Shown here: piece after piece, positions 4,961 through 22,207 of the stretch | Layout of the letters: each line of letters opens with the position of its first letter | Numbering within the stretch: position 1 is the stretch's first letter | Origin: a virus | IMG/VR virus record: IMGVR_UViG_3300007960_009857 | Location: 1-22,207 of that record | Reading direction: 5' to 3' (one strand) | Length of the DNA stretch: 22,207 nt | The notes under the pieces: generated by a model | The model's input: the letters and a program-made list of their open reading frames with translations, nothing else | What the model was told of the DNA's origin: nothing | Databases searched by the model: none | Position numbers and translations under genes: made by a program

Positions 4961-6427
4961 ATGTCCAAATTAGATAAACAGCACCCAATGATAAATGATT
5001 TTTGGGAAATCTTGGATAATTATAAAGATTTGCCCTTGCCTAAATATCCTATTTATATACCAAGTAAGGGTAGGGCTGAGACAAAAGCAACGGCTGCAAA
5101 TTTTGAAGAGAATAATATTCCTTATACTTTTTCAATAGAAAAAGAAGATGAAGAAAAATACAGAAAAGCTTTTCCCAATGCCGAGTTTATTATTTTAGAA
5201 AAATCAAATCAAGGTAATCCATATTCAAGAAATACAATTAAAGAACACGCCCTTAAAAATGGACATAAATATCATTGGCATATTGATGATGATATAAAAA
5301 AAATGGCATATTATTTAGATGGCAAAAATAATTATTTTGATAATTTTGCTCAATGCCTATCCATTATAGAAGCAGTTTGTGATAAATATGAAAATATTGG
5401 AGCAGCAAGTCCAAGAAGCAGCGCTTTTTCAAGAACAGAAAAAAGCATTATTGGATTTAACAAAAATATTTATTGTGTGATGTTGTTGAAAAATGATAAT
5501 GATATTTGGTTCCGACCAGATGTTCTTGAAGATAAAGATATGAGTATGCAGATTTTGGCAAACGGAGAATGCACTGTTTTATTTAACCGACTTTTAATGT
5601 TTAATCCAAGCACGGGCACAAATTCAGGCGGACACGGAGTTCATAGTGAAAGAGTAAAAAGCAGAGCAGAAAGAGCAAAACAATTGGCTAAAAATTGGCC
5701 GGGAGCTTTTGAATTAAGAGAAACAAAAGATGGACTGAGACCAAAGCCGTCAAGAATTTGGCAAACTTTCAAACAAAGACCAATAAAAAAAGGAGAAAAC
5801 AATATGAATATACACGAAACATTAAAGGATTTATTGATTGATATAGATGATGTAAAACCTTTTTCAAAAAATCCCCGAAAGGGCAATGTTGATAAAATTC
5901 AACAATCACTGCAAGCAAACGGGCAATATCGTCCAATTGTTGTTAATAAAAAAACAAATGAAATTCTGGCTGGTAATCATACCTGGCAGGCAGCAAAGAT
6001 TTTAGGCTGGAAAAAGATTGCAGCCACATTTGTTGATGTCAGCAAAGAAGAAGCAAAGAAAATTGTTTTGATAGATAATAAATCCAGTGATGATGCTGAT
6101 TACTATAATGAAACTTTGAAAGAATTGCTGGAAGATTTGAAGAATGATTTAGATGGCACCGGCTATTCAGAAAGCGACCTAAACACACTGATTGCCGATA
6201 CTATGCCAAAAACAGATGCTTTTGAAGAATGGGAAAATATGCCCGATTTTGAGTCAGAAGATGTTTCTTCTGCCTATAAAACAACTGTTCATTTTCCAAC
6301 AGAAGAAGATGCTGATAATTTTTTTAAGCTCCTTGGAGTTGAGCGCAAAAAAGTTTTATGGTATCCTGATACAGACGGGCATAAGCCGACAGACGGCAAA
6401 AAAGAATATATCAAAGAAGAGGAATAA
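4961..6427 (+). CDS. TAGT-family glycosyltransferase fused to ParB-like domain, 488 aa
   Basis: Residues about 24-265 form a GT-A-like glycosyltransferase of the TET-associated family (TAGT). It has IYIPSKGRA at the start, HWHIDDD with D109-D111 as metal and sugar-nucleotide ligands, LEDKDMSMQIL (E190, D191, D193) and a late SGGH. TAGTs are predicted, and in some phages shown, to add sugars to hydroxymethylated pyrimidines in DNA. Residues from 282 form a ParB/sulfiredoxin-like domain (KPFSKNPRKG, then ILAGNHTWQAA), which binds or cuts DNA in other families. The joint falls exactly at ATG 5804, which has its own Shine-Dalgarno site, so two products are likely. Start 4961 is preferred because a perfect -10 ends seven bases before it. 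The next gene follows after one base. The glycosyltransferase half is more divergent than the one at 6429. Confidence 0.82.
   Translation: MSKLDKQHPMINDFWEILDNYKDLPLPKYPIYIPSKGRAETKATAANFEENNIPYTFSIEKEDEEKYRKAFPNAEFIILEKSNQGNPYSRNTIKEHALKNGHKYHWHIDDDIKKMAYYLDGKNNYFDNFAQCLSIIEAVCDKYENIGAASPRSSAFSRTEKSIIGFNKNIYCVMLLKNDNDIWFRPDVLEDKDMSMQILANGECTVLFNRLLMFNPSTGTNSGGHGVHSERVKSRAERAKQLAKNWPGAFELRETKDGLRPKPSRIWQTFKQRPIKKGENNMNIHETLKDLLIDIDDVKPFSKNPRKGNVDKIQQSLQANGQYRPIVVNKKTNEILAGNHTWQAAKILGWKKIAATFVDVSKEEAKKIVLIDNKSSDDADYYNETLKELLEDLKNDLDGTGYSESDLNTLIADTMPKTDAFEEWENMPDFESEDVSSAYKTTVHFPTEEDADNFFKLLGVERKKVLWYPDTDGHKPTDGKKEYIKEEE
5791..5803 (+). promoter_or_regulatory. internal ribosome-binding site for a ParB-only product
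   Basis: AAAGGAG (AGGAG at 5791-5795) lies eight nt before in-frame ATG 5804, at the junction of the two domains. It is as good as the sites before the scaffold and capsid genes. Initiation here would give a 207-residue protein (5804-6427) holding only the ParB-like domain and its acidic tail. Confidence 0.7.
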
Positions 6428-6428
6428 A

Positions 6429-7328
6429 ATGCAACCTCAATTTCCGATTTATATTCCCTCCAAAAGCAGAGCGAGCACAGCAACAACCCCGCGAGTTCTT
6501 GAGGATATGGGAGTTGATTATCGGATTGTTGTTGAGGAGCAACAGTATAAAGAATATTCTGAATATTTCAAAAAAAGTAGGTTGTTGGTATTGGACCCAA
6601 AATATTATGCTGAGTATGATGCCTGTATGGAAATTGAAGAAGGCGAGTCAAAGGGTTCTGGACCCGCACGCAATTTTATCTGGGAGCACTCAATCAGTGA
6701 AGGGCACGATTGGCACTGGACTATGGACGATAACATATATGAATTTTTACGGCTGCACAAAAATCAAAAAATAGGTGTTGGAGATGGAACAATTTTTGTG
6801 GCAATGGAAGATTTTTCATTAAGATATGAAAATGTTGCTATGGCTGGACCGCATTATCGGGGCTTTGCTGATGCAAGAAAAAAGATGCCACCTTTTATAA
6901 CTGGCACTCGGGTTTTTTCTTGTAATTTAATCCGCAATGATTTGCCTTTTAGATGGCGTGGCAGATATAACGAAGATGTGGATTTATCTTTAAGAATGCT
7001 CAAAGCTGGCTGGGCAACAATACAATTTTTTGCATTTCTCCAAGACAAGGCTAAAACTCAAACATTTGCTGGAGGAAATACAGAAGCTTTTTATGCAAAA
7101 GAAGGAACATATCTGAAATCAAAAATGTTGGTTGATTTACACCCTGATGTAACTGAGTTGGCGTGGAGATTTGGTAGAGTTCATCACCACGTGGATTACT
7201 CACAGTGGAGAGGAATGCCGCTGATTAAAAAGAAAGATTATCAATCATCAAAAAACAATCCTTATAAAATGAAACTTGTGAATAAAACAAGAAGCGGCAA
7301 GAAATCTGGTAAAAAATATCTTGATTGA
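6429..7328 (+). CDS. TET-associated glycosyltransferase (TAGT), 299 aa
   Basis: A full-length TAGT with the family blocks in order: IYIPSKSRA near the N-terminus, HWTMDDN (residues 96-102, nucleotide-sugar and metal binding), EDFSLRYENVAMAGP, FRWRGRYNEDVDLSL (N181, E182, D183, D185), a GGNTEAFY block, then HPDV and FGRVHHHVDY. The family transfers a sugar from a nucleotide donor to hydroxymethyl-cytosine or related bases in phage DNA. The start at 6429 follows GAGGA and sits one base after the preceding stop; longer upstream frames overlap the ParB domain and are rejected. It lies directly before TerS, so modification and packaging genes are interleaved. The likely donor is UDP-xylose or a derivative, judging from ugd and the decarboxylase nearby; glucose cannot be excluded. 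Confidence 0.88.
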   Translation: MQPQFPIYIPSKSRASTATTPRVLEDMGVDYRIVVEEQQYKEYSEYFKKSRLLVLDPKYYAEYDACMEIEEGESKGSGPARNFIWEHSISEGHDWHWTMDDNIYEFLRLHKNQKIGVGDGTIFVAMEDFSLRYENVAMAGPHYRGFADARKKMPPFITGTRVFSCNLIRNDLPFRWRGRYNEDVDLSLRMLKAGWATIQFFAFLQDKAKTQTFAGGNTEAFYAKEGTYLKSKMLVDLHPDVTELAWRFGRVHHHVDYSQWRGMPLIKKKDYQSSKNNPYKMKLVNKTRSGKKSGKKYLD

Positions 7329-7370: not shown

Positions 7371-7970
7371 ATGGCAAGAAAAAACAAACTCACAGAAGAA
7401 CGAAAAGAAAAAATTGTTTCTTTTATCCGTGCTGGCAATTATGCAACACAGGCAGCGCAGGCGGCGGGAGTCAGTGAAAGCACATTTTACAGATGGCTTG
7501 CCAGGGGAAAAGATGCCGCTATTGTGTGCGAAAGATGGGAAGAAGATGTGGAAAACTGGAATAATTTGAATGATATGCAAAAGCGCAAACAGCAAAACAA
7601 AAAGCCCAATCTTGACAATGCGCCAGATGCTGATGATATTCTTTATTGGGAGTTTTGGGAGGCAGTCAAAAAAAGCGAAGCTGAGGCAGAAGCCTCTGCT
7701 GTTTTGCATATTAAGAAAGCAGCAAACGATGGCACCTGGCAAGCAGCCGCTTGGTATTTAGAAAGAAAATACAAAGACAGATGGGGACGACAGGATAAAA
7801 TCTCCCACGAAGGCACCATAAATCACTCACTAGGACTTAACGCATCAGAAGAAGAGATTGCAAACACAAGAAAGCGATTAGAGCAGGCGAGACAATTGCC
7901 AGAAGGAGGCGTGGAGATTACGCGGACTGAGTTAATAGAAGCGGAAATTATTGAAGACAATGAAGAGTGA
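7371..7970 (+). CDS. terS: terminase small subunit, 199 aa
   Basis: Recognises phage DNA for packaging and hands it to the large subunit. An N-terminal helix-turn-helix (about residues 18-45, AAQAAGVSESTFYRWLARGK) is followed by the conserved AEAEASAVLHIKKAANDGTW and AAAWYLERKYKDRWGRQD blocks typical of small terminase proteins. An acidic C-terminal tail ends the protein. It is separated from the large subunit by 2.7 kb of accessory genes, which is unusual because the two normally adjoin. Its last bases overlap the start of the UDP-xylose synthase gene. Start ATG 7371 is supported by the -10 element nine bases upstream. A 125-residue minus-strand frame over it is a shadow. Confidence 0.88.
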   Translation: MARKNKLTEERKEKIVSFIRAGNYATQAAQAAGVSESTFYRWLARGKDAAIVCERWEEDVENWNNLNDMQKRKQQNKKPNLDNAPDADDILYWEFWEAVKKSEAEAEASAVLHIKKAANDGTWQAAAWYLERKYKDRWGRQDKISHEGTINHSLGLNASEEEIANTRKRLEQARQLPEGGVEITRTELIEAEIIEDNEE

Positions 7971-8919
7971 TAATAAAACAGTCAGTGTTGTTTCTGGAGG
8001 CGCTGGTTTTCTTGGCTCTCACTTGTGCGAGGCGTTATTGGCAAAAGGACACCGTGTTATTGCCATAGATAATTTATCAACAGGCTCAAGCAAAAATTTG
8101 GCAAACATATTATTCACGGAGAAAGACTTTCAGTTTATTCACGGCGATATTACAAAGGCAATTTCAATCAAAGAAGAAGTCAATTTTATTTACAATCTGG
8201 CATCTCCTGCAAGTCCTAAAGATTATCAAAAGCTGAGTGTTGAAACACTGAGAGCGGGAGCATACGGCACAGAAAATCTTTTACAGCTAGCAGAAGACAA
8301 CAGCGCCAGCTTTTTACAGGCATCAACATCAGAAATATATGGAGACCCGCTTATTAGCCCACAAACAGAAAGCTATTGGGGAAATGTCAATCCAGTAGGA
8401 GCGCGCTCAATGTATGATGAGGCAAAGCGATACGGAGAAGCACTGGTTATGGCGCATCACCGCCAATACAAGACAGATACAAAGATTGCCAGAATATTTA
8501 ACACATACGGAACAAGAATGAAATCAGACGACGGCAGAGCAATCCCCACTTTTTTGGCTCAAGCATTACAAGATAAAGATATAACTGTTTTTGGCGACGG
8601 CACGCAAACGCGTTCTTTTTGTTATGTCGGTGATTGTATTGCTGGACTGATAGCTTTAATGGAAAGTTCATATCATAGCCCGATTAACATTGGCAATCCA
8701 ACAGAACACTCACTGCAAGAAGTGGCTGAAAAGGTTATTGATGCAACAAACTCAAGTTCTCAAATTGTTTATCTTGATTTGCCAGAAGATGACCCAAAGA
8801 CACGCAAGCCAGATATTAGCAAAGCAAAAAAAATCTTAAACTGGGAGCCAAAGATAGATTTGGAAAGAGGGTTGAAGATTGTTCTGCATCAGTCAAATTA
8901 TCAAGATTTGATTTACTGA
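7960..8919 (+). CDS. uxs: UDP-glucuronate decarboxylase (UDP-xylose synthase), 319 aa
   Basis: Converts UDP-glucuronate to UDP-xylose with bound NAD+. The short-chain dehydrogenase fold is clear: GGAGFLG (13-19) binds NAD, ASTSE (121-125) and YDEAK (Y152, K156) form the catalytic set, and YGDPL, ESYWGNVNP, ARIFNTYG and QTRSFCYV are hallmark blocks of the decarboxylase rather than of dTDP-glucose dehydratase. The start is ATG 7960; TTG 7951 in the same frame is less likely. The gene overlaps terS by 11 nt, so translation is probably coupled. It completes the route begun by ugd and probably supplies a pentose donor for the TAGTs or for the transferase at 16037. Confidence 0.92.
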   Translation: MKSDNKTVSVVSGGAGFLGSHLCEALLAKGHRVIAIDNLSTGSSKNLANILFTEKDFQFIHGDITKAISIKEEVNFIYNLASPASPKDYQKLSVETLRAGAYGTENLLQLAEDNSASFLQASTSEIYGDPLISPQTESYWGNVNPVGARSMYDEAKRYGEALVMAHHRQYKTDTKIARIFNTYGTRMKSDDGRAIPTFLAQALQDKDITVFGDGTQTRSFCYVGDCIAGLIALMESSYHSPINIGNPTEHSLQEVAEKVIDATNSSSQIVYLDLPEDDPKTRKPDISKAKKILNWEPKIDLERGLKIVLHQSNYQDLIY

Positions 8920-8929
8920 AATCTTTTAA

Positions 8930-9001
8930 GATGAAAAACAGCGTGCGCGTTTTTTTCCTGCTATTATCCAATTATGAACACTACACCACAAAAACTAAAT
9001 A
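8930..9001 (+). repeat. 72-bp direct repeat, copy 1
   Basis: Identical over 72 bp to 9211-9282, 281 bp apart. It contains a T7 run, TGC-TATTAT and the first nine codons (MNTTPQKLN) of the following frame. A-A-A-A-A-C and G-T5 arms around GCGTGCGC could also form a weak terminator-like hairpin for the upstream gene. Confidence 0.95.
8951..8973 (+). promoter_or_regulatory. leaderless-type promoter, copy 1
   Basis: TGC-TATTAT (-10 at 8962-8967) with a T run upstream; CCAATT separates it from ATG 8974. It drives the frameshifted gene. Confidence 0.6.
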
Positions 9002-9215
9002 TTATTTCCAATGTATGCACACGCGTTATCCAGCTTTCAAATGACACACCTGGACTTGGGAGCTAACTCCAAACAGCGCCGGTCCTGTTACAACTGGCAC
9101 ACTCCACCTAAACGCTCACCGAGATGGTGATGAATACTGGTTTGAAGTTGGCTTGATGGAAGCCGAAGGAATTATGTCAGACTGGGAGGATATGGACATT
9201 AAGTTCGCACGATGA
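8974..9215 (+). pseudogene. frameshifted small gene
   Basis: ATG 8974 opens a frame that stops at 9066 after 30 residues. From about 9045 another frame carries a protein-like sequence, TWTWELTPNSAGPV and then DEYWFEVGLMEAE, to TGA at 9213-9215. Joining the first 24 codons to this frame with a -1 shift near 9046-9051 would give a protein of about 80 residues. No standard slippery heptamer is visible, so a one-base loss (or a sequencing error) is more likely than programmed frameshifting. I do not recognise the product. It shares its promoter and first nine codons with the intact gene at 9255. Confidence 0.6.
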
Positions 9216-9282
9216 AAAACAGCGTGCGCGTTTTTTTCCTGCTATTATCCAATTATGAACACTACACCACAAAAACTAAATA
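9211..9282 (+). repeat. 72-bp direct repeat, copy 2
   Basis: Exact copy of 8930-9001. It begins inside the last codons of the pseudogene and ends nine codons into the gene at 9255. Outside it the two regions do not resemble each other. Confidence 0.95.
9232..9254 (+). promoter_or_regulatory. leaderless-type promoter, copy 2
   Basis: Same sequence as copy 1: TGC-TATTAT (9243-9248), CCAATT, ATG 9255. No Shine-Dalgarno site. Confidence 0.6.
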
Positions 9283-10672: not shown

Positions 10673-12181
10673 ATGTCATTTATTCCTGCAAGATTGCTAT
10701 TCACAACAGAGGCTGAAAGAGAGCTTATCCAATCTGATGAATTGGCAAACGCTCTTTTTGTAGAAGAAGAAAAAGAAAAGGTTGGACAATCGTTTCTTTA
10801 TTTTCTTGAAAACTATGGCTCACATCTACCAGCAGATGGTGGTTCTCCAGAGCCATTACAAATGTGGGACTATCAGCCCAAGATGGCAGAAGTATTGGCA
10901 ATTGGCAATGATACAATTTGCCTTAAAAGTAGGCGCATCGGCTTTACTTTAATTGTGTGCCATTATCTTGTTTGGATTGCAGGCTTATCTGATGAAAAAC
11001 CTGGAGCGCGGTGCATAGCTATTTCAAAAAATCAAAGAGATGCGGACGAGCTTTTGGCCACTTGCCGCAGCATAGTTAATTGCCTACCCCCATATCTCAG
11101 ACCAGCAATAGGCGCAGAAGCAAAGAGCGCGCAGGGACAATTAGGCAAAGAAACAACAAAACACTTTTCTTTTCCGCTCAGAGATGGCGCGTCTATTCGC
11201 TCACTGCCAGCAAGCAGCAGCGCAGCGCGCTCATATACAGCCACTGTTCTTTTTCTTGATGAGCTGGCATTTCATCAAAACGCAGATGAAGTATGGGTTT
11301 CAGCAAAGCCAACAACAGAAGGCGGCGGACAAGTGATTGTGGGAAGCACAGGCAATGGGCGCAGCGGAGACGGCAAACACTTTTGTTTCTTGTGGGAACA
11401 GGCAGAGCGTGAAAAGATTATGGAGCCTATTTTTATTTCTTGGCGAGACAGAGAAGATAGGACGCAAGAATGGTATGATGAAACAGCAAAAACAATGCCG
11501 ACATTAGATAAGATGCAACAAGAATATCCAGATAATCCAGATGAAGCGTTTTCTGGTCAATCTGAAAACTTGGCGTTCTCAATTACATCACTGGCAGAAG
11601 CAGAGAGAACAGGAAAAGAATTTGACAATCTTTTGACAGAAAACAATTTGCCAGAAGCAGCTGATGAAATAGAAATAGGGATTGACTGGGGATTAAATTC
11701 GGCAGCAGTGATTGTTTATCCTTTAGCGGGCTTTGGCTTTTATATCATAGATGAGCTGGTGTCCAATACAGATGATGCTGAAACATTTTCAAAAAATACA
11801 TTGGCTTTGGCTTTTCAGTATGCACAAGAGCACAACACGAAAATTGGACGCGTGTTCTATGATGCCGCTGGTGCTCAGCAAATGAAATCTTTCCAACGCA
11901 TATCACCGCCCGACATTAGAATTACAAAAGTGCCATTTAATAAATATAAAACAAGGACTGTTGAATTTATTAGGCTACTTTTGAAAAGAACGAAAGCAAA
12001 AGAGCCGATTGGCACAATTGCAATTTCGGCAAGATGTGAAGAGACATTAAAGCAAATGAGAGACATTAAACAAATGGAAGATGGCAGATTGCACAAGGGC
12101 AATGACCACAGTGTTGATGCCTTGATTGCCGCTTTATCGCAGCGCGCTGTTGAGTGGGACAAAAATTATGGGGTTAATTAA
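10673..12181 (+). CDS. terL: terminase large subunit, 502 aa
   Basis: The packaging motor ATPase and nuclease. The N-terminal ATPase domain shows a degenerate Walker A-type loop KSRRIGFT (85-92) and Walker B with catalytic acid TVLFLDE (191-197). VGSTGNG (223-229) probably acts as the coupling motif. The C-terminal RNase H-like nuclease domain has IDWG with D338, YDAAG with D397, and DHSVDAL with D478 and D482. Length fits the family. The gene starts seven bases after a perfect -10 element and lacks a ribosome-binding site. Portal follows 35 bases later with its own -10 element, so each may be transcribed separately. The 2.7-kb distance from terS is unusual. Confidence 0.93.
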   Translation: MSFIPARLLFTTEAERELIQSDELANALFVEEEKEKVGQSFLYFLENYGSHLPADGGSPEPLQMWDYQPKMAEVLAIGNDTICLKSRRIGFTLIVCHYLVWIAGLSDEKPGARCIAISKNQRDADELLATCRSIVNCLPPYLRPAIGAEAKSAQGQLGKETTKHFSFPLRDGASIRSLPASSSAARSYTATVLFLDELAFHQNADEVWVSAKPTTEGGGQVIVGSTGNGRSGDGKHFCFLWEQAEREKIMEPIFISWRDREDRTQEWYDETAKTMPTLDKMQQEYPDNPDEAFSGQSENLAFSITSLAEAERTGKEFDNLLTENNLPEAADEIEIGIDWGLNSAAVIVYPLAGFGFYIIDELVSNTDDAETFSKNTLALAFQYAQEHNTKIGRVFYDAAGAQQMKSFQRISPPDIRITKVPFNKYKTRTVEFIRLLLKRTKAKEPIGTIAISARCEETLKQMRDIKQMEDGRLHKGNDHSVDALIAALSQRAVEWDKNYGVN

Positions 12182-12216: not shown

Positions 12217-13716
12217 ATGGGTATTTTTACAGGATTGAACAATATGATGGGAAAAAATACATTTCCGCCCACAAAAGAAATTGCAGACCGTTGGGAGTGG
12301 ATAGCATATTGGTCTGGATTGCGGGACAATAATGAAATCTATGTAAGGAATGAAGCAATCAAAAGAGGAATGGGCGGCAGAAATCGCCAAGCCTATATTG
12401 CTCAGCCCGTGCCGCGCGCTTTATCTCAAGCGAGCGCAAACCTACTTTTTGGAGAGCCGCCGACAATTAAAGCTGGCAACCCTGATGACCAAGAAAGACT
12501 TGATGCAATCATTGGAACAAATAAGCTCTTTGCACAATGCAGAGCGGCAGCAATTACAAGCAGTTCAGAAGGCGGTGTTTATCTTAAGGTCAGCATAGAC
12601 CCCAGCACCCCACGCGGACAGAAGGTTCCGCTTATTCAGTTTATTGAAGAACGCAGAGTTATTCCAAACTTTCAAAACTTTTCCGAGCTGGTGTCAGCAA
12701 CAGTTATTACAAACTGGCAAGAAAACAATAAAGTTTATAGACTGATGGAGAACCATATCCCCGGTTATATCTCATATGAGTTATATGCTGGAGGCAGCAA
12801 TGAAATTGGATTAAAAATTCCTTTGGCAAATCACCCGAAAACAGCAGGTATTGAAGAAGAGATGGAAACTGGCGTGAGTGAATTGCTGGTGTCATATATC
12901 CCCAACAGCCTTAATACAAACAGCCCATTTGGAGTCAGTGATTACGCAAATGGAATTGATGATTTGTTTTTTGCTTTTAACGATGCGACCAGCATAGCAC
13001 ACAGAGCAACACAAAGCGGCGTGCCACTCACTGTGTTGCCTCGTGAATTGCTAGATGAAAACCAATCACTTAATCACGAAAAAACAATTGTTGCAGTGAA
13101 TAAACTGGCAGATACTCTTGGAGAAGGCGATGTTTCAAAGATGATTGAAACAGTTCAGCACAACGCTCAGCAGGACAAGTTTATGAGTTATGCAAAAGAA
13201 GTTCTTGATTTGTTGCTTATCTTTTCTGGGATTAGCCCGCAGAGTATTGGCAGAAGCGTAGATGGCGGAGCAACAAGCGGCACAGCGCTTAAATTAAAAA
13301 TGTCATCAACACTATCAACTGCAGCAGGCAAAGCTGTATTTTATGAAGACAGTTTGGCTGAGATGCTCAGACTGGCAGCAATCTTGGATACAGAAACATT
13401 TGGCGATGGCAACAACATTAAAGAAGCAGCTGATTGGACAGAAGCTGAAAGCGCTGTTTCTGTTAAGCTAGATGATGGATTGCCTGATGATGAGATTGAG
13501 ATGGCAAATATTATTCAGAGGCTGAAAGCATCTGGAGCAATTTCCCTGGAGCAGGCAGTCAGAAAAGCCAATCCGCATATGACAGATGAACAAGTTGAAG
13601 CAGAGATTGATGCAATCAGAGCTGAAACACAAGCTGAAACAGCGGCAATCGGTGAAGCATTACCAACAACAAACATTGGTAATATTCTCAGCGACATCAC
13701 CGCAGAAGAGCTTTAG
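12217..13716 (+). CDS. portal protein, SPP1 gp6-like, 499 aa
   Basis: The portal ring sits at one capsid vertex and is the channel for DNA entry and exit. Supporting features are its position directly after terL, its length, and blocks typical of SPP1-type portals: an N-terminal WIAYWSG segment, PRALSQASANLLFGEPP (about 66-82), a central NSPFGVSDYANGIDDL, and FSGISPQSIGRSVDGGATSGTALKLKM written here only in part (SPQSIGR, then TSGTALKLK). The C-terminus is acidic and helical with repeated A, E and Q. No frameshift is seen. No MuF-type head protein follows, although one is common after this kind of portal. Confidence 0.9.
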   Translation: MGIFTGLNNMMGKNTFPPTKEIADRWEWIAYWSGLRDNNEIYVRNEAIKRGMGGRNRQAYIAQPVPRALSQASANLLFGEPPTIKAGNPDDQERLDAIIGTNKLFAQCRAAAITSSSEGGVYLKVSIDPSTPRGQKVPLIQFIEERRVIPNFQNFSELVSATVITNWQENNKVYRLMENHIPGYISYELYAGGSNEIGLKIPLANHPKTAGIEEEMETGVSELLVSYIPNSLNTNSPFGVSDYANGIDDLFFAFNDATSIAHRATQSGVPLTVLPRELLDENQSLNHEKTIVAVNKLADTLGEGDVSKMIETVQHNAQQDKFMSYAKEVLDLLLIFSGISPQSIGRSVDGGATSGTALKLKMSSTLSTAAGKAVFYEDSLAEMLRLAAILDTETFGDGNNIKEAADWTEAESAVSVKLDDGLPDDEIEMANIIQRLKASGAISLEQAVRKANPHMTDEQVEAEIDAIRAETQAETAAIGEALPTTNIGNILSDITAEEL

Positions 13717-13860
13717 TGGAAAAATCTGCCGCATATTAGTTTGTATGATACATTATATAAGTAGGTTCAGTTATCCGTAAAATAACGATTGGTGAAAATG
13801 CTACCAACGGAGGTCGCGCTCCGAAAAAAACGAAGAAAACGCATTAAAATAGGAGAAACA
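13717..13860 (+). promoter_or_regulatory. promoter and structured leader of the scaffold gene
   Basis: TATGAT at 13744-13749 is the likely -10, giving a leader of about 100 nt, unlike the leaderless genes around it. CGGAG (13808-13812) pairs with CTCCG (13819-13823) around GTCGCG and is followed by A7. AGGAG (13851-13855) lies five bases before ATG 13861. The hairpin does not resemble a terminator, as A residues follow it. Confidence 0.5.
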
Positions 13861-14454
13861 ATGTCAGAACAAGAAAATAATAATTCAGAAGAGACAGCCC
13901 CTGCCGAAAATACAGAAGCTGTTTCAAATGATAACGCAGCACAAGAAGACAGTTCAGCGCCAGTTGTGCCGGTGAGAGAATTGCAAAAAGAGCGCAGAGA
14001 GCGCCAAAATCTTGAAAAGAAGCTGGCTACCTTGCAGCAGCAGCAAGAAGAGGCAAGGCAAGCAGAGCTTACGGAAGTTGAAAGGCTCAAAGAAGAGCTG
14101 GAAAACACCAAGGCACAAGCAGCAGCAGCAGAGCAGGCGAGAGTTCTATCGGAGCAGCAATCTCTGGTAAGGGCAGCAGCAGGCTCAATGGCTTTTGCAG
14201 ATGTGAATGATGCAATCACATTTGTTAATTTTGAAACATTTGAAGGACTTGAAGGCAGCGAGCTATCTCAGGCAATCTCGGACGAAGTGTCCAGAGTCAG
14301 TCAGGAGAAACCGTATTTGCTGGCAAAGACAGAAGAACAGCATAAACGCGGAGTTGGTATCGCAGCCGACAGAGAGGGCGCAAACGAGCCAGCGCCAGAA
14401 GGTGAAGAAGCGTTGGGCGGATTTGTCCATAATCTTCTTTTCGGCAAGCAATAA
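13861..14454 (+). CDS. capsid scaffolding protein, 197 aa
   Basis: Guides capsid assembly and leaves before DNA enters. Assignment rests on position between portal and capsid genes and on composition: an acidic, low-complexity start (MSEQENNNSEETAP), then a long charged coiled coil at about residues 38-105 (RELQKERRERQNLEKKLA, later VERLKEELENTKAQ), and a C-terminal globular tail ending in GGFVHNLLFGKQ. Such tails bind capsid subunits in known scaffolds. No protease motif is visible. The start at 13861 has AGGAG upstream; the frame also extends to 13789, but without an ATG of comparable context. A terminator follows, so scaffold and capsid have separate signals. A minus-strand frame over it is a shadow of its biased composition. 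Confidence 0.82.
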   Translation: MSEQENNNSEETAPAENTEAVSNDNAAQEDSSAPVVPVRELQKERRERQNLEKKLATLQQQQEEARQAELTEVERLKEELENTKAQAAAAEQARVLSEQQSLVRAAAGSMAFADVNDAITFVNFETFEGLEGSELSQAISDEVSRVSQEKPYLLAKTEEQHKRGVGIAADREGANEPAPEGEEALGGFVHNLLFGKQ

Positions 14455-14543: not shown

Positions 14544-14573
14544 TTACCCTAAAAAGTGCAGGGTAAAACCTGC
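14544..14573 (+). promoter_or_regulatory. leader with two competing hairpins before the capsid gene
   Basis: TTACCCT (14544-14550) can pair with AGGGTAA (14560-14566); alternatively GCAGG (14558-14562) can pair with CCTGC (14569-14573). The two share AGG and cannot form together. AAGGAG (14585-14590) and ATG 14601 follow. The arrangement could tune or stabilise the capsid message. No clear -10 element is identified, so the capsid promoter is unplaced. Confidence 0.4.
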
Positions 14574-14600
14574 TTAAATGAAACAAGGAGAAAATCAACA

Positions 14601-15515
14601 ATGGCAAACCAAATCCCCCTAAGTGGAGCAAGTGAAGCCGCTGGTGGCGCAATGTTGCCAACTCCCCTGGTAGAGTCCGTAGTGGAACAAATCCAGAGGG
14701 AAAGTGGCACGCTTAACCTTGTTGATACCGCTACAACAAACAGCCGCAAGGAGGCTATCCCCGTTTATAAGGGACGCCCGACTGCCCAGTTTGTTGATGA
14801 GGGAGCAAATAAACCGGTTGATGGTGCTGAATTTACCACCCTCAATCTCAATGTCAAGAAGTTGGCAGTTATTGTTCCTTTCACCGATGAGGTGCTAGCA
14901 GACGCACAGGAGGACCCCCGTGCCCTAGTTACTCCCGATGTTGTTGCATCATTTGCTGATGCCGCTGATAGTCATATCCTAGGATTGGCTGCCGGTTCTG
15001 GTATTAGCTCGGCTTTTGATAGTGCAATTGCCGATGATGCTGATGACAGCGTGGAGTATGGGACAGAGGGAGACGCCCTGCGCAGAGCGGTTTCAGCAGC
15101 TATGGGTAAGCTAGAAGCCAATGGCTATATGCCGAATGGCGTTCTTCTTGGTGGCGATAGCGGACAAATTATCAGAGACGCAAGGACCCAAGATGATAAC
15201 ACGGTCCCCGTTTATGATACCGCCTCCCCTCTATACGGACTAAACTCCGGAATCAGTACCAACCTCGCTAGGATTAGCGATGCAGCCGATGGTGATGTTA
15301 TCGGCGTTGTTGCTGATTGGAATTATTGTAGGTTCCGTGTTCGCTCTGACCTAAACCTCACGGTTAGTAATCAGGCAGCTTACACGCAAAGCGGAAGCCT
15401 AGTGTCAGCATTTGAAAAGAATGTTACACTCCTACGCTGGGAGATGCGTGCCGGATTTGTTATTACAGACCCGCGTGCGGTTATCACAATCACCAAGGGC
15501 GCAGCAGGCTCATAA
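14601..15515 (+). CDS. major capsid protein, HK97 fold, 304 aa
   Basis: Forms the icosahedral shell. Blocks typical of HK97-family capsid proteins are visible: an N-terminal arm with PTPLVESVVEQIQRES, EAIPVYKGRPTAQFVDEG, LNVKKLAVIVPFTDEVLAD (the E-loop and spine-helix region), NGVLLGGD and a closing MRAGFVITDPRAVITI. It is short and lacks a long N-terminal delta domain, which fits the separate scaffold gene upstream. The start has AAGGAG ten bases before it; a GTG at 14556 is rejected because it lies in the leader. Codon choice differs from neighbouring genes, with far more GCC, CCC, CTA and ACC, as expected for the most highly expressed gene. It is flanked by terminators on both sides. Confidence 0.92.
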   Translation: MANQIPLSGASEAAGGAMLPTPLVESVVEQIQRESGTLNLVDTATTNSRKEAIPVYKGRPTAQFVDEGANKPVDGAEFTTLNLNVKKLAVIVPFTDEVLADAQEDPRALVTPDVVASFADAADSHILGLAAGSGISSAFDSAIADDADDSVEYGTEGDALRRAVSAAMGKLEANGYMPNGVLLGGDSGQIIRDARTQDDNTVPVYDTASPLYGLNSGISTNLARISDAADGDVIGVVADWNYCRFRVRSDLNLTVSNQAAYTQSGSLVSAFEKNVTLLRWEMRAGFVITDPRAVITITKGAAGS

Positions 15516-15603: not shown

Positions 15604-16044
15604 ATGGCTATCTATGCAACAGAAGAATTTTGTAATGCTTATCTTGGAGTTAATGATATTTCAGATGATGAAATTACCAAAGCCGAAGAAATGATTGATG
15701 ACTTGGCTATTGGCTCACAAGAACAAACTTTGGGCAATCGTGAAAGATTTGATTTTGATGGTGTGTGGCGCAAGCTTAATCCTGACCAGCTGATTGATTA
15801 TAAAGTTGATGCATTATCAAGAGCAACGGCAGAGCAAGTCAAATATCGGCGAGTGATGGGAGAAGATTTCTTTTATAAGCCTCAAAGAGATAAAGGCTCA
15901 ATGGACGGAGTTAGCTTTGAAGGCACCTTGCCTCACATCTCACCAAGAGCATTGGCAATTCTATCTGATGTTGGACTAGTTAATAAACTTGGCGCAAGCA
16001 GCGTGGTAGCCAAGATTAAACTAGAAGATATCGGTTATGAATGA
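15604..16044 (+). CDS. probable head-completion or head-tail connector protein, 146 aa
   Basis: The start MAIYATEEFCNAYLG followed by an acidic helix resembles the beginning of phage head-tail adaptor proteins of the gp6/gp15 type, and position directly after the capsid gene supports this. The remaining sequence is mixed alpha/beta with no membrane segment. Its role would be to join portal and tail and close the head after packaging. The resemblance is from motif memory and position only; an unrelated minor head protein is possible. It overlaps the next gene by eight bases, so the two are probably translated together. Confidence 0.55.
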   Translation: MAIYATEEFCNAYLGVNDISDDEITKAEEMIDDLAIGSQEQTLGNRERFDFDGVWRKLNPDQLIDYKVDALSRATAEQVKYRRVMGEDFFYKPQRDKGSMDGVSFEGTLPHISPRALAILSDVGLVNKLGASSVVAKIKLEDIGYE

Positions 16045-17059
16045 TAGTCAAAGAATAGATTTTTATGCAACACATATTCAGTATTTAGACCACATTTTGC
16101 CAGTGTGGGAAAAGTTGCCTGAGAGAAACAAGGGAAATTTTTATGTTTCTTATAAGCTCCATAAATATCTTGAAAAAAAAGATATTGAAATTGAAAATCA
16201 AAATCCTATCATCAATCTTAATTCTGAAAACAATGCTGAAAGATTAATGTATTGTGCATCACATATTAATTTGCAAAATGCAAGAGAAAGATATGGCAGA
16301 AAAGTAATTTATACAGAACACGGAGTTGGGCAATCTTATTCAGGAATAAAACACAAAAGTTATATTGGAGGCGAGCGGGCACGCGTTGTGGCAATCTTTG
16401 TTCCTGGAGAAAAACAAGCAGCTCAGCAAGAGTATTATTATCCAACAATCCCAGTTTATCCAATCGGCGTTCCTAAATTAGATAAATACCACGCAGCAAA
16501 AAAGAAGCCGAAAAATGAAAACACCGTGTGTGTCAGCTTTCACTGGGATTGCCAATTGTTGCCAGAAACAAGAAGCGCTTTTATTTATTACAAGTCAGCT
16601 TTGGCGCAGTTGGCTAAAATGGATAAAGAATACAATCTTGTTGGGCACGGACACCCTAATCAAAAAAGCAGATTTGAAAAGTTTTATCAAAGCATAGGTA
16701 TTCCTTTTATTGATAATTTTTTTGATGTGATTGATGAAGCATCATTATATGTATGTGATAGCAGCTCCACAATCTATGAATGGATTAGCCTTGAACGGAA
16801 TGTTGTTTTACTCAATGCTCCTTTTTATAGAAGAGATGTTGAACACGGAATGCGCTTTTGGGAGCACGCGGATATGGGCATCAATTGCAATAAAAAGAAA
16901 GAATTGAATGATAGCATTATTGAGGCTCTTAATCGTCCAAATGATTTTGATGAGCGCAGAAAAGAAATTGTTTCTGATGTTTTTGCCACAACAGATGGCA
17001 ACGCATCTCAGCTGGCAGCAGATGCTATTGTTGAAACAATAGAAAAATGGGCTGATTAA
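16037..17059 (+). CDS. GT-B transferase, CDP-glycerol glycerophosphotransferase-like, 340 aa
   Basis: Resembles the TagB/TagF group of transferases that add glycerol phosphate or sugars from CDP or UDP donors. Visible features are YTEHGVGQSY (H95), VGHGHPNQ (H204, H206) and CDSSSTIYEWISLERNVVLLNAP written in part (DSSSTIYEW, D241 to W249), matching the donor-binding half of the GT-B fold. No signal peptide or membrane segment is present. It overlaps the connector gene by eight bases and lies directly before the giant fibre gene, so fibre, capsid or host-envelope decoration is more likely than DNA modification. A glycosyltransferase using UDP-xylose is an alternative. The substrate cannot be fixed from sequence alone. 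Confidence 0.72.
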   Translation: MNDSQRIDFYATHIQYLDHILPVWEKLPERNKGNFYVSYKLHKYLEKKDIEIENQNPIINLNSENNAERLMYCASHINLQNARERYGRKVIYTEHGVGQSYSGIKHKSYIGGERARVVAIFVPGEKQAAQQEYYYPTIPVYPIGVPKLDKYHAAKKKPKNENTVCVSFHWDCQLLPETRSAFIYYKSALAQLAKMDKEYNLVGHGHPNQKSRFEKFYQSIGIPFIDNFFDVIDEASLYVCDSSSTIYEWISLERNVVLLNAPFYRRDVEHGMRFWEHADMGINCNKKKELNDSIIEALNRPNDFDERRKEIVSDVFATTDGNASQLAADAIVETIEKWAD

Positions 17060-17095: not shown

Positions 17096-18160
17096 ATGGC
17101 TGGAAAATTATACACCTGGGGTTGGTCTGATAGCGGAAGACTCGGAAACAACAAAACAAGTCCCTCTGATTTAGTACCGACTCAAGTAGGGGCAGATACC
17201 GTATGGGATTCTGTTTCAGCGGGTTATGGACATACACTAGCAATCTATGATGGACAACTTTATGCTTGGGGAGACAATAATTCTAATCAGCTAGGAGATG
17301 GAACAACAACTGACTCTCTCGTTCCGCTGTTAATTGACTCGGATACTGATTGGACCTCAGTTTCTTCTGGATATGAGTTTTCTTTAGCGATTAAAGCAGG
17401 GCAACTCTATTCGTGGGGGTCAAACGGCAGTGGAAGAACGGGTCAAGGTACATCATCAGGCAATACGACAACCCCAACTCTCGTGGGGTCAGATTCCGAC
17501 TGGCAACAAATATCTGCTTCAAAGGGAGGGGCTTTTGCTCTTGCAATTAAAGGTGGGCAGCTATATGCCTGGGGCTTAGCTACTTATGGAGCACTAGGAA
17601 ATGGCGTTACTTCAGGTTCATATTCCACCCCCCAATTGATTGATAGCGATACAGATTGGCAAATGGTTTCAGCGGGAGCAAGACATTCACTAGCAATCAA
17701 AGGCGGAAAATTGTTTTCGTGGGGAGCTGCTGCTAACGGACGCTTAGGAAACGGAACCACAACGCCAGATATAAGCGCCCCAACTCAAATCGGTGTTGAT
17801 GACTGGGATATGGTTTCAGCCGGAAATGGCGGGTCGCAGGATTTTTCCTTTGCATTAAAAGGAGGGTCTATTTTTACTTGTGGCTATGGCTCCGCTAAGG
17901 GTCTTGGCGTAGCATCTAATTTTTCTGATACGACAACTTTTACGCAGGTTGGGGTAGATACTGACTGGGATTATATTGCGGCGGGTTTTGACCACACTCA
18001 CGGAATAAAAGGAGGACTTCTTTTTGGTTGGGGCACTGACTCCTATGGTCAAGTTGGTGATGCCGGTTCAGGAACTAAAAATGAGCCTTTAGAAATTGAT
18101 AGTTCCGATAAATGGACCAGTGTGTCTGCGGGAAGACGCTATTCTGCAGCCATTGAATCC
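17096..18160 (+). repeat. seven RCC1-type repeats (coding)
   Basis: The seven strand motifs are LYTWG, LYAWG, LYSWG, LYAWG, LFSWG, IFTCG and LFGWG, spaced 50-55 residues apart. The sixth replaces the conserved tryptophan with cysteine. Seven copies is the number needed for one closed propeller. Confidence 0.8.
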
Positions 18161-21100
18161 GTAGGTGGGACAACTTACCCGGACGAAGTATTAGCAGACA
18201 GCCCATACCTTTACTGGCGCTTAGGTGAGGCAGCAGGCTCAGCGACTGTTGAAGACAGTTCAACAAATGATAGGGACGGCGATGTTTATAATAACACAGG
18301 ACCTGGATTAGGCGCAACATCACTTATTGTTAATCAGCCTGATAATGATGCTTTTGAATGCACAGGCAGCGGCGGAGCATTTCCTTATTATTCTGATGGA
18401 GATTTTTCAGGGATTTTTGCTGGCGGCGCGCTTACTGTTGAGGCTTGGGTCAGGCGCTCAGGAACCTCTGCATCTTCTGGAAGAATTGCAGCCAAAGAGT
18501 CAGGCTTTGGTTTTTCCTGGAGCGGGACAACCAATCAGCCGCGCTTTAATTGTATTTATAACAACACGAGCGGAAAAATTCTTAATGCGACAACAACTCT
18601 CAATCAAGATGAGGACTATCATATTGTCGGCGTTGCTTATGAAGAAAGCGGAACAATGTATATGGACCTCTACATCAACGGAGTTTTAGACGCCAGCACA
18701 ACCCAAGCCATCACAACATTTGGCAGCTCAAATACTACTTCTGCCTTTGCTGTGGGCGCAAGAATTCTTAATGCATCTTCTCCATCTCCGAGTACTTATG
18801 CAACCAATACATTTGTTGATGATGTGGCTATTTATCCAACCGCTCTTTCACCAGAAAGAATTGAAGACCATTATAACGCAGGTATGGCTGCATCTGGAGC
18901 ACCACCTGTAAATACAGTTTTGCCAGCAATCTCTGGCACAGAAAAAGTTGGAGAAACTTTAACAACAACAGACGGCACCTGGACTGGCAGCCCTACGCCA
19001 ACATACACTTATCAGTGGCAAGTTTCAGATGATGGCTCAACTGGTTGGAGTGATATATCAGGCGCAACAAGCAACACATACACATTAACATCAGCACAAA
19101 GCGGCAAGTATGTCCGTTCAGAAGTAACTGCAACAAACACAGAAGGAACTGTTATAGCAGAAAGCGCATCTTCTGGACAGATTGTTGAAGATGTTGCCAA
19201 TACAGCTATTCCAACAGTTTCAGGGACAACAAGAGTTGGTGAAACTTTAACAACAACAGACGGGACTTGGACTGGATTTCCAGCTCCAACTTATGCATAT
19301 CAGTGGCAAGTTTCCGATGATGGCATTTCAAGCTGGAGCAATATATCAGGAGCAACAAGCAGCACATACATTTTAACAACATCAGAAACTGGCAAATATG
19401 TTCGCTCAGCAGTAACTGCAACCAATTCAGAAAATTCAGTTACTGCCGAAAGCGCAAGCACAACTGTTATTAACGAAACTCCATCTATATCATCATTAAC
19501 AATTTCTGGGACAGCAGAAGTTGGAGAAACGCTCACTGCAAATATTACAGCGACAGGTTTTCCAACGCCAACATATACTTATCAGTGGGAAGAAAACGAT
19601 GGCTCTGGCTGGACAAACATTTCTGGAGCAGTTAGCAGCACATACATTTTAACATCAGCGCAAGCTGGCAACACAATCAGAGTTTCAGCAACTGCAACAA
19701 ACTCAGAGGGAAGCGATAGCGAAACAAGCGCAGCAACAACAGAAGTAATATGGGAGCCAGCAAATGCAACACTGCCAGAAATTAGTTATTCTGGATTTTT
19801 AGAAGTTGGCAATACGCTCACAGCAAGCGATGGCACCTGGACTGGCTATCCAGCTCCATCTGTTTTTACTTATCAATGGGAACAAAGTCCTAATGGCAAT
19901 GATACTTGGACTGAAATTGTAGGAGCAACAAATAACACATTTCTTTTAACTACAAATCAAACTGAAAAATATATTAGGGTAAAAGTCAGCACAACAACAA
20001 CATCTGGCAGTGCGAGCGCATACAGCGCAACAACTGGATTTGTCAGCGAAGACCCAGTTAATATCAGCGCACCAACAGTTACAGGAACAACTGCAAGCGG
20101 CGAGACATTAACAGCAGACCCCGGAACCTGGAGCGGCTTTCCTGAACCAAACTTTACTTATCAATGGCAAAGCAGCATCACAGGAAGCACAGAATGGACA
20201 AACATTTCTGGAGCAACCAATAGCACACTTGTATTAAATAACTTGGCTGGAAAATATATCAGGGTTTGGGTAACTGCAACAAACCCAGTTGGTTCAGCAA
20301 GCGCAGCAAGCGATGCGACAGGACCAGTTGTAGAAGCGCCAATAATCACAGATGCATTTATAACAGGAACAGAAATACAAGGGGAAACGCTCACAGCAAA
20401 CGCAACAACGACAGGTTATCCTGAGCCAACCCTAACTTATCAATGGCAAAGAAGTAATGATAATGTTTCTTGGCATAATATTTCTGGAGAAACTGCATCA
20501 ACTCTTCTTCTTGTTGGAGCTGAAACTCACCGATATATTAGGGTGATAATTACAGCAACAAACACAGAGGGCAGTGATGTATTTACAACAGACAGTGTTG
20601 GACCAATTGAAGCTTATCCAATTGCCAGCATACCAGTCATTTCTGGAACGCCAGAACCTGGAAATGATTTAACTACAACAGCAGATTTTGAAACAGGTTA
20701 TCCTGAACCAACAATTACAATTCTTTGGCAATATTCAGTCAATAATGGAGTTACTTGGCAAAATACAGCAAATACAACAACAACATATTCATTAACAACA
20801 GATGATTTAGGCAGATTATTCAGAACACAAATCACAGCTACCAATTATCTTGGCTCAGACACAGAAACAAGCGCACCGTACGGACCAATTGTTTCTTTGC
20901 CAGTATTGGTCTCATCACCGACAATTTCAGGCACAGAAATCGTTGGCAATACTTTAACAGCAACACCGGGAACATACACTGCATATCCAGCAGAAACATA
21001 TGCTTATCAGTGGGAAATTTCCGATGATGGATTGACTGGCTGGACAAGCATTTCAGGAGCAGCAAGCAACACACTATCATTAACCAGTTTTTATTCTGGA

Positions 21101-22126
21101 AAATATCTCCGAATTTCAGTTACTGCAAGCAACTCAGAAGGCAGCACAACCAACGCAAGCGCAGCAACCACACAAATCAGAGAAGCACCAGCAAACACAG
21201 CCCTACCATCTATTTCTGGTGTTTATGCAGTGAATGAAGTTCTCACAGCAGACCCCGGAACTTGGACAGGCTTTCCAACACCAACATATACTTATCAGTG
21301 GCAAAGAAATACTGGCGCAGGCTGGAGTGATATTTCTGGAGCAACAGCAAATGAATATTTAACAACAATTGATGATGAGCTGGCAATTTTAAGGGTTTCA
21401 GTAACTGCAACAAACAGTGTTGAAAGCGTAGAATTATTTACCAGCGCAACAGATGCAATACAGCCAGCACCAACAGCTCCAGAAAATGTTGAACAGCCAA
21501 CAATCTCTGGTCTTGCTGAAATTGATGCAACTTTGACATCAGACACTGGCGAGTGGAGCGGATACCCTGAACCAACAATTTCATTTGTTTGGGAAAGAAC
21601 AAAAAACACATCTGGAGCCTGGCAAAGCTTTTCAACAGATGAAGAAATTGTAATTGATGAAACTCTTTTAGGATATTATATTCGCCTTAAAGTTACTGCA
21701 ACAAACTCAGAAGGCACAGCAACAGAAAGCAGTGAATTTATTGGTCCAGTTTTTCAAAGAAGCTATGGACTCAGCACAGTATTGCCAACAAGTAACGGAA
21801 GATTGTTGCAAGTATTTGCTGGCGAAAGTATTGGAGTGGAGTTTGATAGCGAGTTTAATCCTAATGAAGCGCAAGAATTAAGATGGGCTGGAAGCGCCGA
21901 TGCTTGGATTAAAAACAAAACAAAAATAACGCGCTCTGGTGGTATGTCAGATGTTTATAGGGAAACTGTGGTAATTATTCCAAAGGTTGTTACAATACAA
22001 GAAGGCGATAAATTACAAATTAGGCATAATTCACAAACAAAGCTTTATGAAGTTTTAGAAATTGATTTCCTTGATTTAGATATTGCTTTGCCAAATGTTT
22101 ATAAATGCTATATCATAGAAAAATAA
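17096..22126 (+). CDS. giant tail or fibre protein: RCC1 propeller, LamG, ten Ig-like repeats, 1676 aa
   Basis: Domains in order: seven RCC1-type repeats (about residues 1-355), each with an L-Y/F-x-W-G strand and an ALAIKGG-like strand, predicting one seven-bladed propeller. A concanavalin/LamG-type domain follows (about 362-598; GGALTVEAWVRRS, YHIVGVAYEE, FVDDVAIYP). Then come ten Ig-like repeats (about 603-1549) and a C-terminal domain (1550-1676) with no recognised fold. The architecture indicates an extended surface protein with carbohydrate- or protein-binding ends, most simply the receptor-binding fibre or tip. There is no signal peptide or membrane anchor, as expected for a virion protein. 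Start 17096 is six bases after a -10-like hexamer. No frameshift was found over 5 kb. Confidence 0.88.
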   Translation: MAGKLYTWGWSDSGRLGNNKTSPSDLVPTQVGADTVWDSVSAGYGHTLAIYDGQLYAWGDNNSNQLGDGTTTDSLVPLLIDSDTDWTSVSSGYEFSLAIKAGQLYSWGSNGSGRTGQGTSSGNTTTPTLVGSDSDWQQISASKGGAFALAIKGGQLYAWGLATYGALGNGVTSGSYSTPQLIDSDTDWQMVSAGARHSLAIKGGKLFSWGAAANGRLGNGTTTPDISAPTQIGVDDWDMVSAGNGGSQDFSFALKGGSIFTCGYGSAKGLGVASNFSDTTTFTQVGVDTDWDYIAAGFDHTHGIKGGLLFGWGTDSYGQVGDAGSGTKNEPLEIDSSDKWTSVSAGRRYSAAIESVGGTTYPDEVLADSPYLYWRLGEAAGSATVEDSSTNDRDGDVYNNTGPGLGATSLIVNQPDNDAFECTGSGGAFPYYSDGDFSGIFAGGALTVEAWVRRSGTSASSGRIAAKESGFGFSWSGTTNQPRFNCIYNNTSGKILNATTTLNQDEDYHIVGVAYEESGTMYMDLYINGVLDASTTQAITTFGSSNTTSAFAVGARILNASSPSPSTYATNTFVDDVAIYPTALSPERIEDHYNAGMAASGAPPVNTVLPAISGTEKVGETLTTTDGTWTGSPTPTYTYQWQVSDDGSTGWSDISGATSNTYTLTSAQSGKYVRSEVTATNTEGTVIAESASSGQIVEDVANTAIPTVSGTTRVGETLTTTDGTWTGFPAPTYAYQWQVSDDGISSWSNISGATSSTYILTTSETGKYVRSAVTATNSENSVTAESASTTVINETPSISSLTISGTAEVGETLTANITATGFPTPTYTYQWEENDGSGWTNISGAVSSTYILTSAQAGNTIRVSATATNSEGSDSETSAATTEVIWEPANATLPEISYSGFLEVGNTLTASDGTWTGYPAPSVFTYQWEQSPNGNDTWTEIVGATNNTFLLTTNQTEKYIRVKVSTTTTSGSASAYSATTGFVSEDPVNISAPTVTGTTASGETLTADPGTWSGFPEPNFTYQWQSSITGSTEWTNISGATNSTLVLNNLAGKYIRVWVTATNPVGSASAASDATGPVVEAPIITDAFITGTEIQGETLTANATTTGYPEPTLTYQWQRSNDNVSWHNISGETASTLLLVGAETHRYIRVIITATNTEGSDVFTTDSVGPIEAYPIASIPVISGTPEPGNDLTTTADFETGYPEPTITILWQYSVNNGVTWQNTANTTTTYSLTTDDLGRLFRTQITATNYLGSDTETSAPYGPIVSLPVLVSSPTISGTEIVGNTLTATPGTYTAYPAETYAYQWEISDDGLTGWTSISGAASNTLSLTSFYSGKYLRISVTASNSEGSTTNASAATTQIREAPANTALPSISGVYAVNEVLTADPGTWTGFPTPTYTYQWQRNTGAGWSDISGATANEYLTTIDDELAILRVSVTATNSVESVELFTSATDAIQPAPTAPENVEQPTISGLAEIDATLTSDTGEWSGYPEPTISFVWERTKNTSGAWQSFSTDEEIVIDETLLGYYIRLKVTATNSEGTATESSEFIGPVFQRSYGLSTVLPTSNGRLLQVFAGESIGVEFDSEFNPNEAQELRWAGSADAWIKNKTKITRSGGMSDVYRETVVIIPKVVTIQEGDKLQIRHNSQTKLYEVLEIDFLDLDIALPNVYKCYIIEK
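18904..21745 (+). repeat. ten tandem Ig-like repeats (coding)
   Basis: About 95 residues each, with the pattern ISGT-x-x-x-GETLTA, G-T-W-T-G-x-P-x-P-TYTYQW, ISGA-T-x-x-T-Y-x-L, GKYIRV-x-V-TATN-x-EGS. Repeats 1 and 2 are most alike and those toward the C-terminus are more divergent, consistent with growth by internal duplication. Nucleotide identity is high locally around the TATN and YQW codons. Confidence 0.85.
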
Positions 22127-22127
22127 A

Positions 22128-22207
22128 ATGGGAAATTTTGATGATAAAAAAATTGCAGCTGATAGAATTGCAAAACTTGTAGGCTCTTTATATGAATATG
22201 CAACAAA
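22128..22207 (+). CDS. start of a further gene (partial)
   Basis: ATG 22128 follows the fibre stop codon by one base and opens a frame running off the window after 26 codons (MGNFDDKKIAADRIAKLVGS at the start). No Shine-Dalgarno site is seen, so translation may be coupled to the fibre gene. Too short to identify. Confidence 0.55.
   Translation, partial: MGNFDDKKIAADRIAKLVGSLYEYAT

Follow-up and report, generated by a model that had tools for sequence, protein, structure and literature searches.

The locus described here raises the question of which end of a long, fibre-like protein is attached to the virion, and at which site. The protein is encoded by an open reading frame (ORF) of 1676 residues, the fibre ORF, near the end of IMG/VR virus record IMGVR_UViG_3300007960_009857 (positions 1 to 22,207 of that record; this whole stretch of 22,207 nucleotides is referred to as the window). 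The frame is open without any stop across all domains. These are, in order, a complete RCC1-type propeller, a linker, a laminin G (LamG) domain, ten immunoglobulin (Ig)-like units and a separate C-terminal domain, and the gene is located between those for the head-tail adaptor and Neck1. The first-pass annotation had described a propeller, a lectin-like domain and ten Ig repeats, and this order and these counts are borne out by Pfam, blade motifs and repeat cutting; it had left the attached end unclear and had overlooked the C-terminal domain. The attached end is likely to be the C-terminus, through a head-closure-like domain, and the protein is probably a neck fibre (whisker) that is held at its C-terminus, where the head-closure plug would lie, and ends freely in the propeller. 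This mode of attachment is the reason for placing it at the neck and not among the tail fibres. That the product is present in the virion is plausible from gene position rather than directly demonstrated here.

The C-terminal domain comprises 123 residues (aa 1554-1676) and is unlike the Ig stalk in composition, with 13% serine plus threonine and 11.4% lysine plus arginine (stalk: 30.3% and 2.7%, respectively, with 18.8% threonine). A PHROG scan of the last 132 residues, which include this domain and the last residues of the stalk, listed two families: phrog_615 ("head-tail adaptor"; E-value: 0.0094) and phrog_30512 (function not known; E-value: 0.066). Phrog_615 is the sole PHROG match of the domain below an E-value of 0.05. 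The window is continued by L001, an IMG/VR contig of 15189 bases that overlaps its last 123 nucleotides (22085-22207) with 100% identity. In a one-genome search of the window and L001, phrog_615 matched at a single place even at E-values up to 10, and this place is the end of the fibre ORF (21923-22051; E-value: 1.2e-4). The same family matched none of 68 other phage or viral records at E ≤ 0.01; among 14 control genomes it matched one (Bacillus subtilis) at an E-value of 0.01 and six at an E-value of 10.

By position and label, phrog_615 is a head-closure family. Protein 10 of Clostridioides phage phiC2 (phiC2p10) matches it over its full length (E-value: 1.1e-44) and is encoded between genes of an adaptor family (phrog_132) and of Neck1 (phrog_5). 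A tblastn search with phiC2p10 found relatives in 30 phage records, five of which were taken for comparison (FNU_1P, MissE2, Abouo, PVJ1 and one without annotation), giving six phrog_615-type proteins with phiC2p10 itself. The FNU_1P and MissE2 relatives are labelled "head closure knob" and follow a "tail connector" or "head to tail adaptor" gene and precede a type I neck gene. The Abouo relative is labelled "head/tail joining protein"; that of PVJ1 is labelled a hypothetical protein and lies at a similar distance from the capsid gene.

Alignment of aa 1554-1676 with the six phrog_615-type proteins using hhalign gave a score of 24.4 (pairwise E-value: 0.0014) and placed columns 60-100 on residues 59-99, that is, in register. 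Comparison alignments of neighbouring protein types, drawn from five of the six phages, scored 13.4 (adaptor), 9.7 (Neck1) and 10.2 (tail completion). The score of 24.4 was reached by one of 300 shuffles and by none of 600 control ORFs (80-250 aa, taken at random from the six-frame ORFs of the window, L001 and the RCC1 loci discussed below), the best of which scored 18.7.

Several results weigh against a head-closure assignment. The hhalign probability is just 17%, one shuffle does reach the observed score, and every single sequence match is weak. Pairwise hhalign comparisons with head-closure proteins of other families are at background (rank 1 in two of eight phages, ranks 3-12 elsewhere). 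The HQE residues near the C-terminus that are invariant in the six phrog_615-type proteins are absent from the domain in the alignments, and HMMER with the six-sequence profile fails to single out the fibre ORF. A single-sequence AlphaFold2 model of the domain has a predicted local distance difference test (pLDDT) score of 39.8; a Foldseek search with this model returned nothing at E ≤ 0.001 and was not used. Homologues of the domain were limited to the last 13 residues, encoded by L001, in an exact-peptide scan of IMG/VR and GTDB genomes; searches of phages gave E-values of 4 or more only, and searches of plasmids gave none. In addition, the 22 kb of the window and 15 kb of L001 may be less than the whole genome. 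Sequence searches of the PDB with the domain, A118 ORF9, phiC2p10 and two profile alignments found no relevant chain. With NCBIfam, the domain returned noise only, and two known head-closure proteins, those of phiC2 (phiC2p10) and FNU_1P, returned nothing useful either; since known members are also missed, the silence of NCBIfam and Pfam on this domain is uninformative. On weak but converging evidence the domain appears to be a relative of head-closure proteins. Because of the weak matches, the absent HQE residues, the HMMER result and the low-confidence fold model, what is proposed is a likeness (it would work like such a protein) and not membership in phrog_615.

Two candidates were set aside. 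The tblastn matches in Pseudomonas phages Epa5 and Epa19 (E-value: 4) were taken as chance, since they fall in regions of short hypothetical genes that are remote from the neck genes. A stand-alone product of the domain from an internal start was also considered, but the in-frame TTG or GTG codons at aa 1563, 1570, 1571 and 1581 are without a clear ribosome-binding site, and such a product is therefore not supported.

Gene position provides a second line of evidence. The window contains a tailed-phage packaging and head module, and the order across the window and L001 is capsid, adaptor, transferase-like protein, fibre ORF, minor head protein, Neck1 and tail genes including tape measure and Dit. 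The fibre gene is thus between adaptor and Neck1, with the transferase-like gene intervening on the adaptor side and the minor head gene on the Neck1 side. In five phages (Listeria phage A118, VanLee, Picard, DT1 and TVCOM_ph1), the adaptor gene is followed by one for a free-standing protein of 93-124 aa that matches a connector family. Two of these, A118 and TVCOM_ph1, share with the window an adaptor of phrog_541, and their protein in the head-closure position is encoded directly after it. The head-closure families phrog_3881, phrog_25 and phrog_793, each of which was found in one of four reference phages searched in parallel, were absent from the window and L001 at E ≤ 1. In these two records, which may not make up the complete genome, the plug function therefore has no other visible owner.

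The stalk preceding this domain (aa 603-1553) was cut by hand at repeat anchors. This gives exactly ten units, each 92-99 aa long, which are 30-68% identical to each other in protein sequence. It is most relevant to the main rival explanation, in which the protein is a Hoc-like head decoration with an Ig stalk projecting from the capsid faces, a C-terminal domain bound to the capsid, and a head-closure gene that is elsewhere or too diverged to recognize. The stalk does match a Hoc-like head-decoration family (phrog_2973; E-value: 0.0034) and a virion structural family (phrog_12736; E-value: 5.9e-32), and one-Ig relatives are found directly past the capsid gene in Sinorhizobium NV1.1.1 and Vibrio ZQ26 ("decoration protein"). 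T4 Hoc, also a tandem Ig protein, has its N-terminus as the free end and binds via its C-terminus. In the fibre ORF, however, the decoration-family matches are confined to the Ig region, with none in the last 132 residues, and the C-terminal domain matches a connector family and not a capsid-binding one. Searches of the window and L001 with phrog_615 and the three families above showed no other head-closure candidate. This explanation is considered unlikely.

A second concern is that the gene is a metagenome assembly chimera in which a fibre gene was joined to a head-closure gene. No independent contig was found to span the gene: among near-identical contigs, L002 stops at 14860, L001 starts at 22085 and therefore covers the last 123 nucleotides only, and L006 starts within the next gene, so that none includes the stalk. 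Such a join would nevertheless have to preserve an uninterrupted reading frame through all domains, and GC content at third codon positions agrees between the Ig array (0.242) and the C-terminal domain (0.252). DNA identity between any two Ig repeats peaks at 74.9%, and so the repeat count is unlikely to reflect a collapsed assembly repeat. A chimera is thus highly improbable.

At the other end of the protein, Pfam identifies RCC1 (E-value: 1.4e-53, in six stretches) and WD40_RLD (E-value: 2.6e-56), and seven blade motifs lie at aa 5, 55, 104, 156, 206, 259 and 309. Residues 1-602 were modelled with AlphaFold2 from a 40-row alignment that included 39 viral RCC1 ORFs, hand-picked as single-propeller ORFs from the 140 described below (the window's own excluded). 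Block pLDDT values are 73-98 across aa 1-350 and 81 at aa 351-360, and are low past aa 358. The propeller model matches solved RCC1-like domains of HERC2, HERC1, RPGR, UVR8 and RCC1 with Z-scores of 45-50. The VIA-align superposition on HERC2 RLD2 (Z-score 50.1, root-mean-square deviation 1.6 Å, 343 residues) spans model residues 2-355, indicating that the propeller is complete. A closed seven-bladed propeller in the first 355 residues had been set beforehand as a test for structure prediction, and the model confirms it. The following domain has the Pfam match Laminin_G_3 (aa 441-589; E-value: 8.2e-17; 62.2 bits against a curated cut-off of 27.6). Its model, in which a jelly-roll fold would be expected, is poor (blocks with pLDDT of 65 or less).

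The position of the propeller in the protein is unusual. For comparison, the best 80 of 200 confirmed viral RCC1 stretches were taken, giving 77 loci with 140 RCC1 ORFs. Leaving out 23 that are cut by a contig end, the other 117 reduce to 87 distinct ORFs. In 82 of the 87, the propeller ends within 30 residues of the C-terminus (median tail, one residue), although weak extra matches may lengthen the called RCC1 span in long ORFs (to aa 720 in the window ORF); such stretching matters little for the 53 ORFs that have the size of a single propeller. In the fibre ORF the propeller is at the extreme N-terminus and is followed by approximately 1320 residues. The polarity is therefore inverted relative to most viral RCC1 proteins, an arrangement that fits a C-terminal anchor. 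The likeness to these proteins (phrog_4219, phrog_7220 and phrog_16766) is that of a shared propeller family, with 29-39% identity in aligned rows. None of the other RCC1 ORFs in the 77 loci matches the LamG or C-terminal domain of the fibre ORF and two have Ig matches; in the L092 protein, Ig domains come first and RCC1 last, the mirror image of the order in the window. The domain combination had initially been called striking. The propeller alone is not, because RCC1 is common in viral proteins (77 loci kept from 200 confirmed stretches); its N-terminal placement and the C-terminal domain are.

Cyanophage RCC1 genes adjoin tail-fibre or baseplate genes, which allows for another explanation: the gene is for a fibre of the tail or of another site that happens to be encoded among the neck genes, with a C-terminal domain that serves in fibre attachment or as a chaperone and resembles phrog_615 by chance. 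The weakness of the phrog_615 match is in keeping with this. Against it are the position of the gene among neck genes, a C-terminal domain that differs from the stalk in composition, and the absence of phrog_615 from all 68 other records at E ≤ 0.01; it is judged quite unlikely, less probable than a Hoc-like decoration.

The proposed model for a neck fibre is as follows. The last ~123 residues would act as a head-closure (stopper, Hc1) subunit, bound to the adaptor ring and shutting the channel once DNA is packaged. The ten Ig domains would form a flexible stalk, and LamG and the RCC1 propeller a free N-terminal tip, probably binding host-surface or environmental glycans or proteins. If it assembles as SPP1 gp16 does, the neck would be encircled by six copies and so bear six fibres. 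The copy number, the outward direction and the binding role are inferred.

An Ig domain is ~4 nm long, and tail length is given by 0.15 nm per tape-measure residue. By these sizes, and with a tape measure of 1009 aa in L001, the fibre would reach about 50 nm and the tail about 150 nm, so that the propeller would fall short of the tail tip. A role in capturing the host side-on or in tethering to a surface would consequently fit better than final receptor binding; a role of this kind has been suggested for the lactococcal neck passage structure (PMC6669499).

The SPP1 connector is described as gp6(12), gp15(12) and gp16(6), with gp16 a hexameric stopper under the adaptor dodecamer and its N-terminus in a crease of gp15 (PMC9701221). 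In phage 812, an external beta-sandwich domain is part of the stopper, whose termini touch neck decoration proteins (PMC12886913), and the adaptor of roseophage R4C has a peripheral Ig-like domain (PMC10276861). Neck proteins therefore do accept outward additions, and from the SPP1 gp16 and phage 812 arrangements an outward N-terminal fusion would be sterically reasonable. In a more speculative and rather improbable extension, six fibres tipped by lectin and propeller would stand on the DNA-retaining stopper ring, tying adhesion to the gate. Pull on host binding could then influence channel opening, as a sensor-like trigger at the neck and not at the tail tip.

The fibre ORF shares with SPP1 gp16 and other stoppers (phrog_615, phiC2p10) the post-adaptor gene position, a domain of ~115-123 aa and the weak in-register profile match. 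Known members stand alone, at 93-124 aa, whereas the window protein adds ~1550 N-terminal residues and lacks HQE. The lactococcal neck passage structure (NPS) of TP901-1 and the 936 group similarly comprises neck fibres with carbohydrate-binding domains. These fibres are proposed to help adsorption (PMC6669499 and PMC4493119), and the carbohydrate-binding domain binds cells weakly (PMC6669499). The NPS is a separate protein, non-essential in TP901-1, with an N-terminal BppU-like anchor and a coiled-coil stalk. In the fibre ORF, by contrast, the N-terminus is the RCC1 propeller and no such anchor was found there; the stopper domain at the C-terminus would itself serve as anchor, and the stalk consists of Ig domains. 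The R4C adaptor and the phage 812 stopper with its neck whiskers are also connector proteins with accessory beta domains, but the addition there is a single small domain, or the whisker is a protein of its own, as opposed to a fibre of ten Ig domains, a lectin and a propeller. A literature search that covered titles and the beginnings of abstracts found no case of a stopper-fibre fusion or of an RCC1 fibre.

The domain combination is thus best read as a probable stopper-anchored neck fibre, a new form of neck whiskers. In the phages cited, neck whiskers are separate proteins and sometimes dispensable. If the model is correct, shedding the whisker would mean losing the plug, because it is fused to an essential gatekeeper, and its copy number would be fixed. 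It would also illustrate the entry of accessory adhesion modules into the conserved head-tail connector. The propeller, in most viral proteins a C-terminal domain, is here in inverted polarity. Further cases could be sought as long ORFs in the head-closure slot. The features on which this analysis is based are listed in the table.

Table. Positions of the fibre ORF, its domains and the neighbouring head genes in the window
Feature	Position	Strand	Evidence
Fibre ORF, 1676 aa: propeller, LamG, ten Ig, head-closure-like domain	17096..22126	+	ORF list, translation
Seven-bladed RCC1 propeller, aa 1-355; putative distal tip	17096..18160	+	Pfam, blade motifs, AlphaFold2, Foldseek, VIA-align
Linker and Laminin_G_3 (concanavalin-like), aa 356-602	18161..18901	+	Pfam match aa 441-589, E 8.2e-17; low-confidence model
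Ten tandem Ig-like repeats, aa 603-1553, S+T 30%	18902..21754	+	Pfam, repeat cutting, composition
C-terminal head-closure-like domain, aa 1554-1676; putative virion anchor	21755..22126	+	phrog_615 match, hhalign, gene position
Terminase large subunit	10673..12181	+	phrog_2, E 6e-26
Portal, SPP1 gp6 type	12217..13716	+	phrog_533, E 7.7e-64
Scaffold	13789..14454	+	phrog_4866, E 5.6e-7
Major capsid protein	14556..15515	+	Phage_capsid, E 1.8e-22
Head-tail adaptor, Ad1-like, same family as A118 ORF8	15604..16044	+	phrog_541, E 0.0021
Glycosyl/glycerophosphotransferase-like protein (CDP-glycerol type)	16037..17059	+	PF04464, E 2.8e-5, 23.7 bits (cut-off 22.1)
Minor head gene, 5' end, cut by window end; whole in L001:44-874	22128..22207	+	Minor head PHROG, E 8.5e-30; Phage_min_cap2

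Downstream of the fibre gene, L001 encodes, in order, the minor head protein, Neck1, proteins of 153 and 351 aa, the tape measure, Dit and an NHL-repeat tail-tip protein. The 153-aa and 351-aa proteins, in the tail-completion and major tail positions, respectively, had no PHROG match. The tail-tip protein (L001:7828-9900) has NHL repeats (Pfam E-value: 2.6e-15), and the virion may thus bear a second type of propeller. The 123-nucleotide overlap between the window and L001 is a length that k-mer assemblers can leave between adjoining contigs, with the break at the 3' end of the fibre gene. Searches for relatives through the capsid, adaptor, portal, terminase and minor head proteins recovered the same phage (L002, L005, L006, L008 and L022), remote or spurious loci (L003, L007 and L023), or none; a single-protein scan with the RCC1-LamG part recovered none.

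The transferase-like gene overlaps the adaptor gene by 8 nucleotides and stops 36 nucleotides before the fibre gene. Speculatively, its product could glycosylate or otherwise modify the threonine-rich stalk. Among the viral RCC1 loci, L080, L102, L107, L069, L036 and L044 contain very long ORFs made up of nearly all RCC1 repeats, the longest being those of L107 (4916 aa, open at both ends) and L069 (3005 aa, complete). A LamG-like tail seen by eye in the L069 protein was dropped, as Pfam finds none at E ≤ 0.01.

The first half of the window contains a group of sugar genes that may be a DNA base-sugar modification set. It includes a UDP-glucose dehydrogenase (3503-4783), two TET-associated glycosyltransferases (TAGT; 4895-6427 and 6192-7328) and a nucleotide-sugar epimerase (7951-8919). 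The first of the two TAGT proteins also contains a ParB N-terminal domain. Two identical 72-bp direct repeats are found at 8930-9001 and 9211-9282, and positions 1-101, at the contig start, consist of a 16-bp tandem repeat in 6.3 perfect copies.

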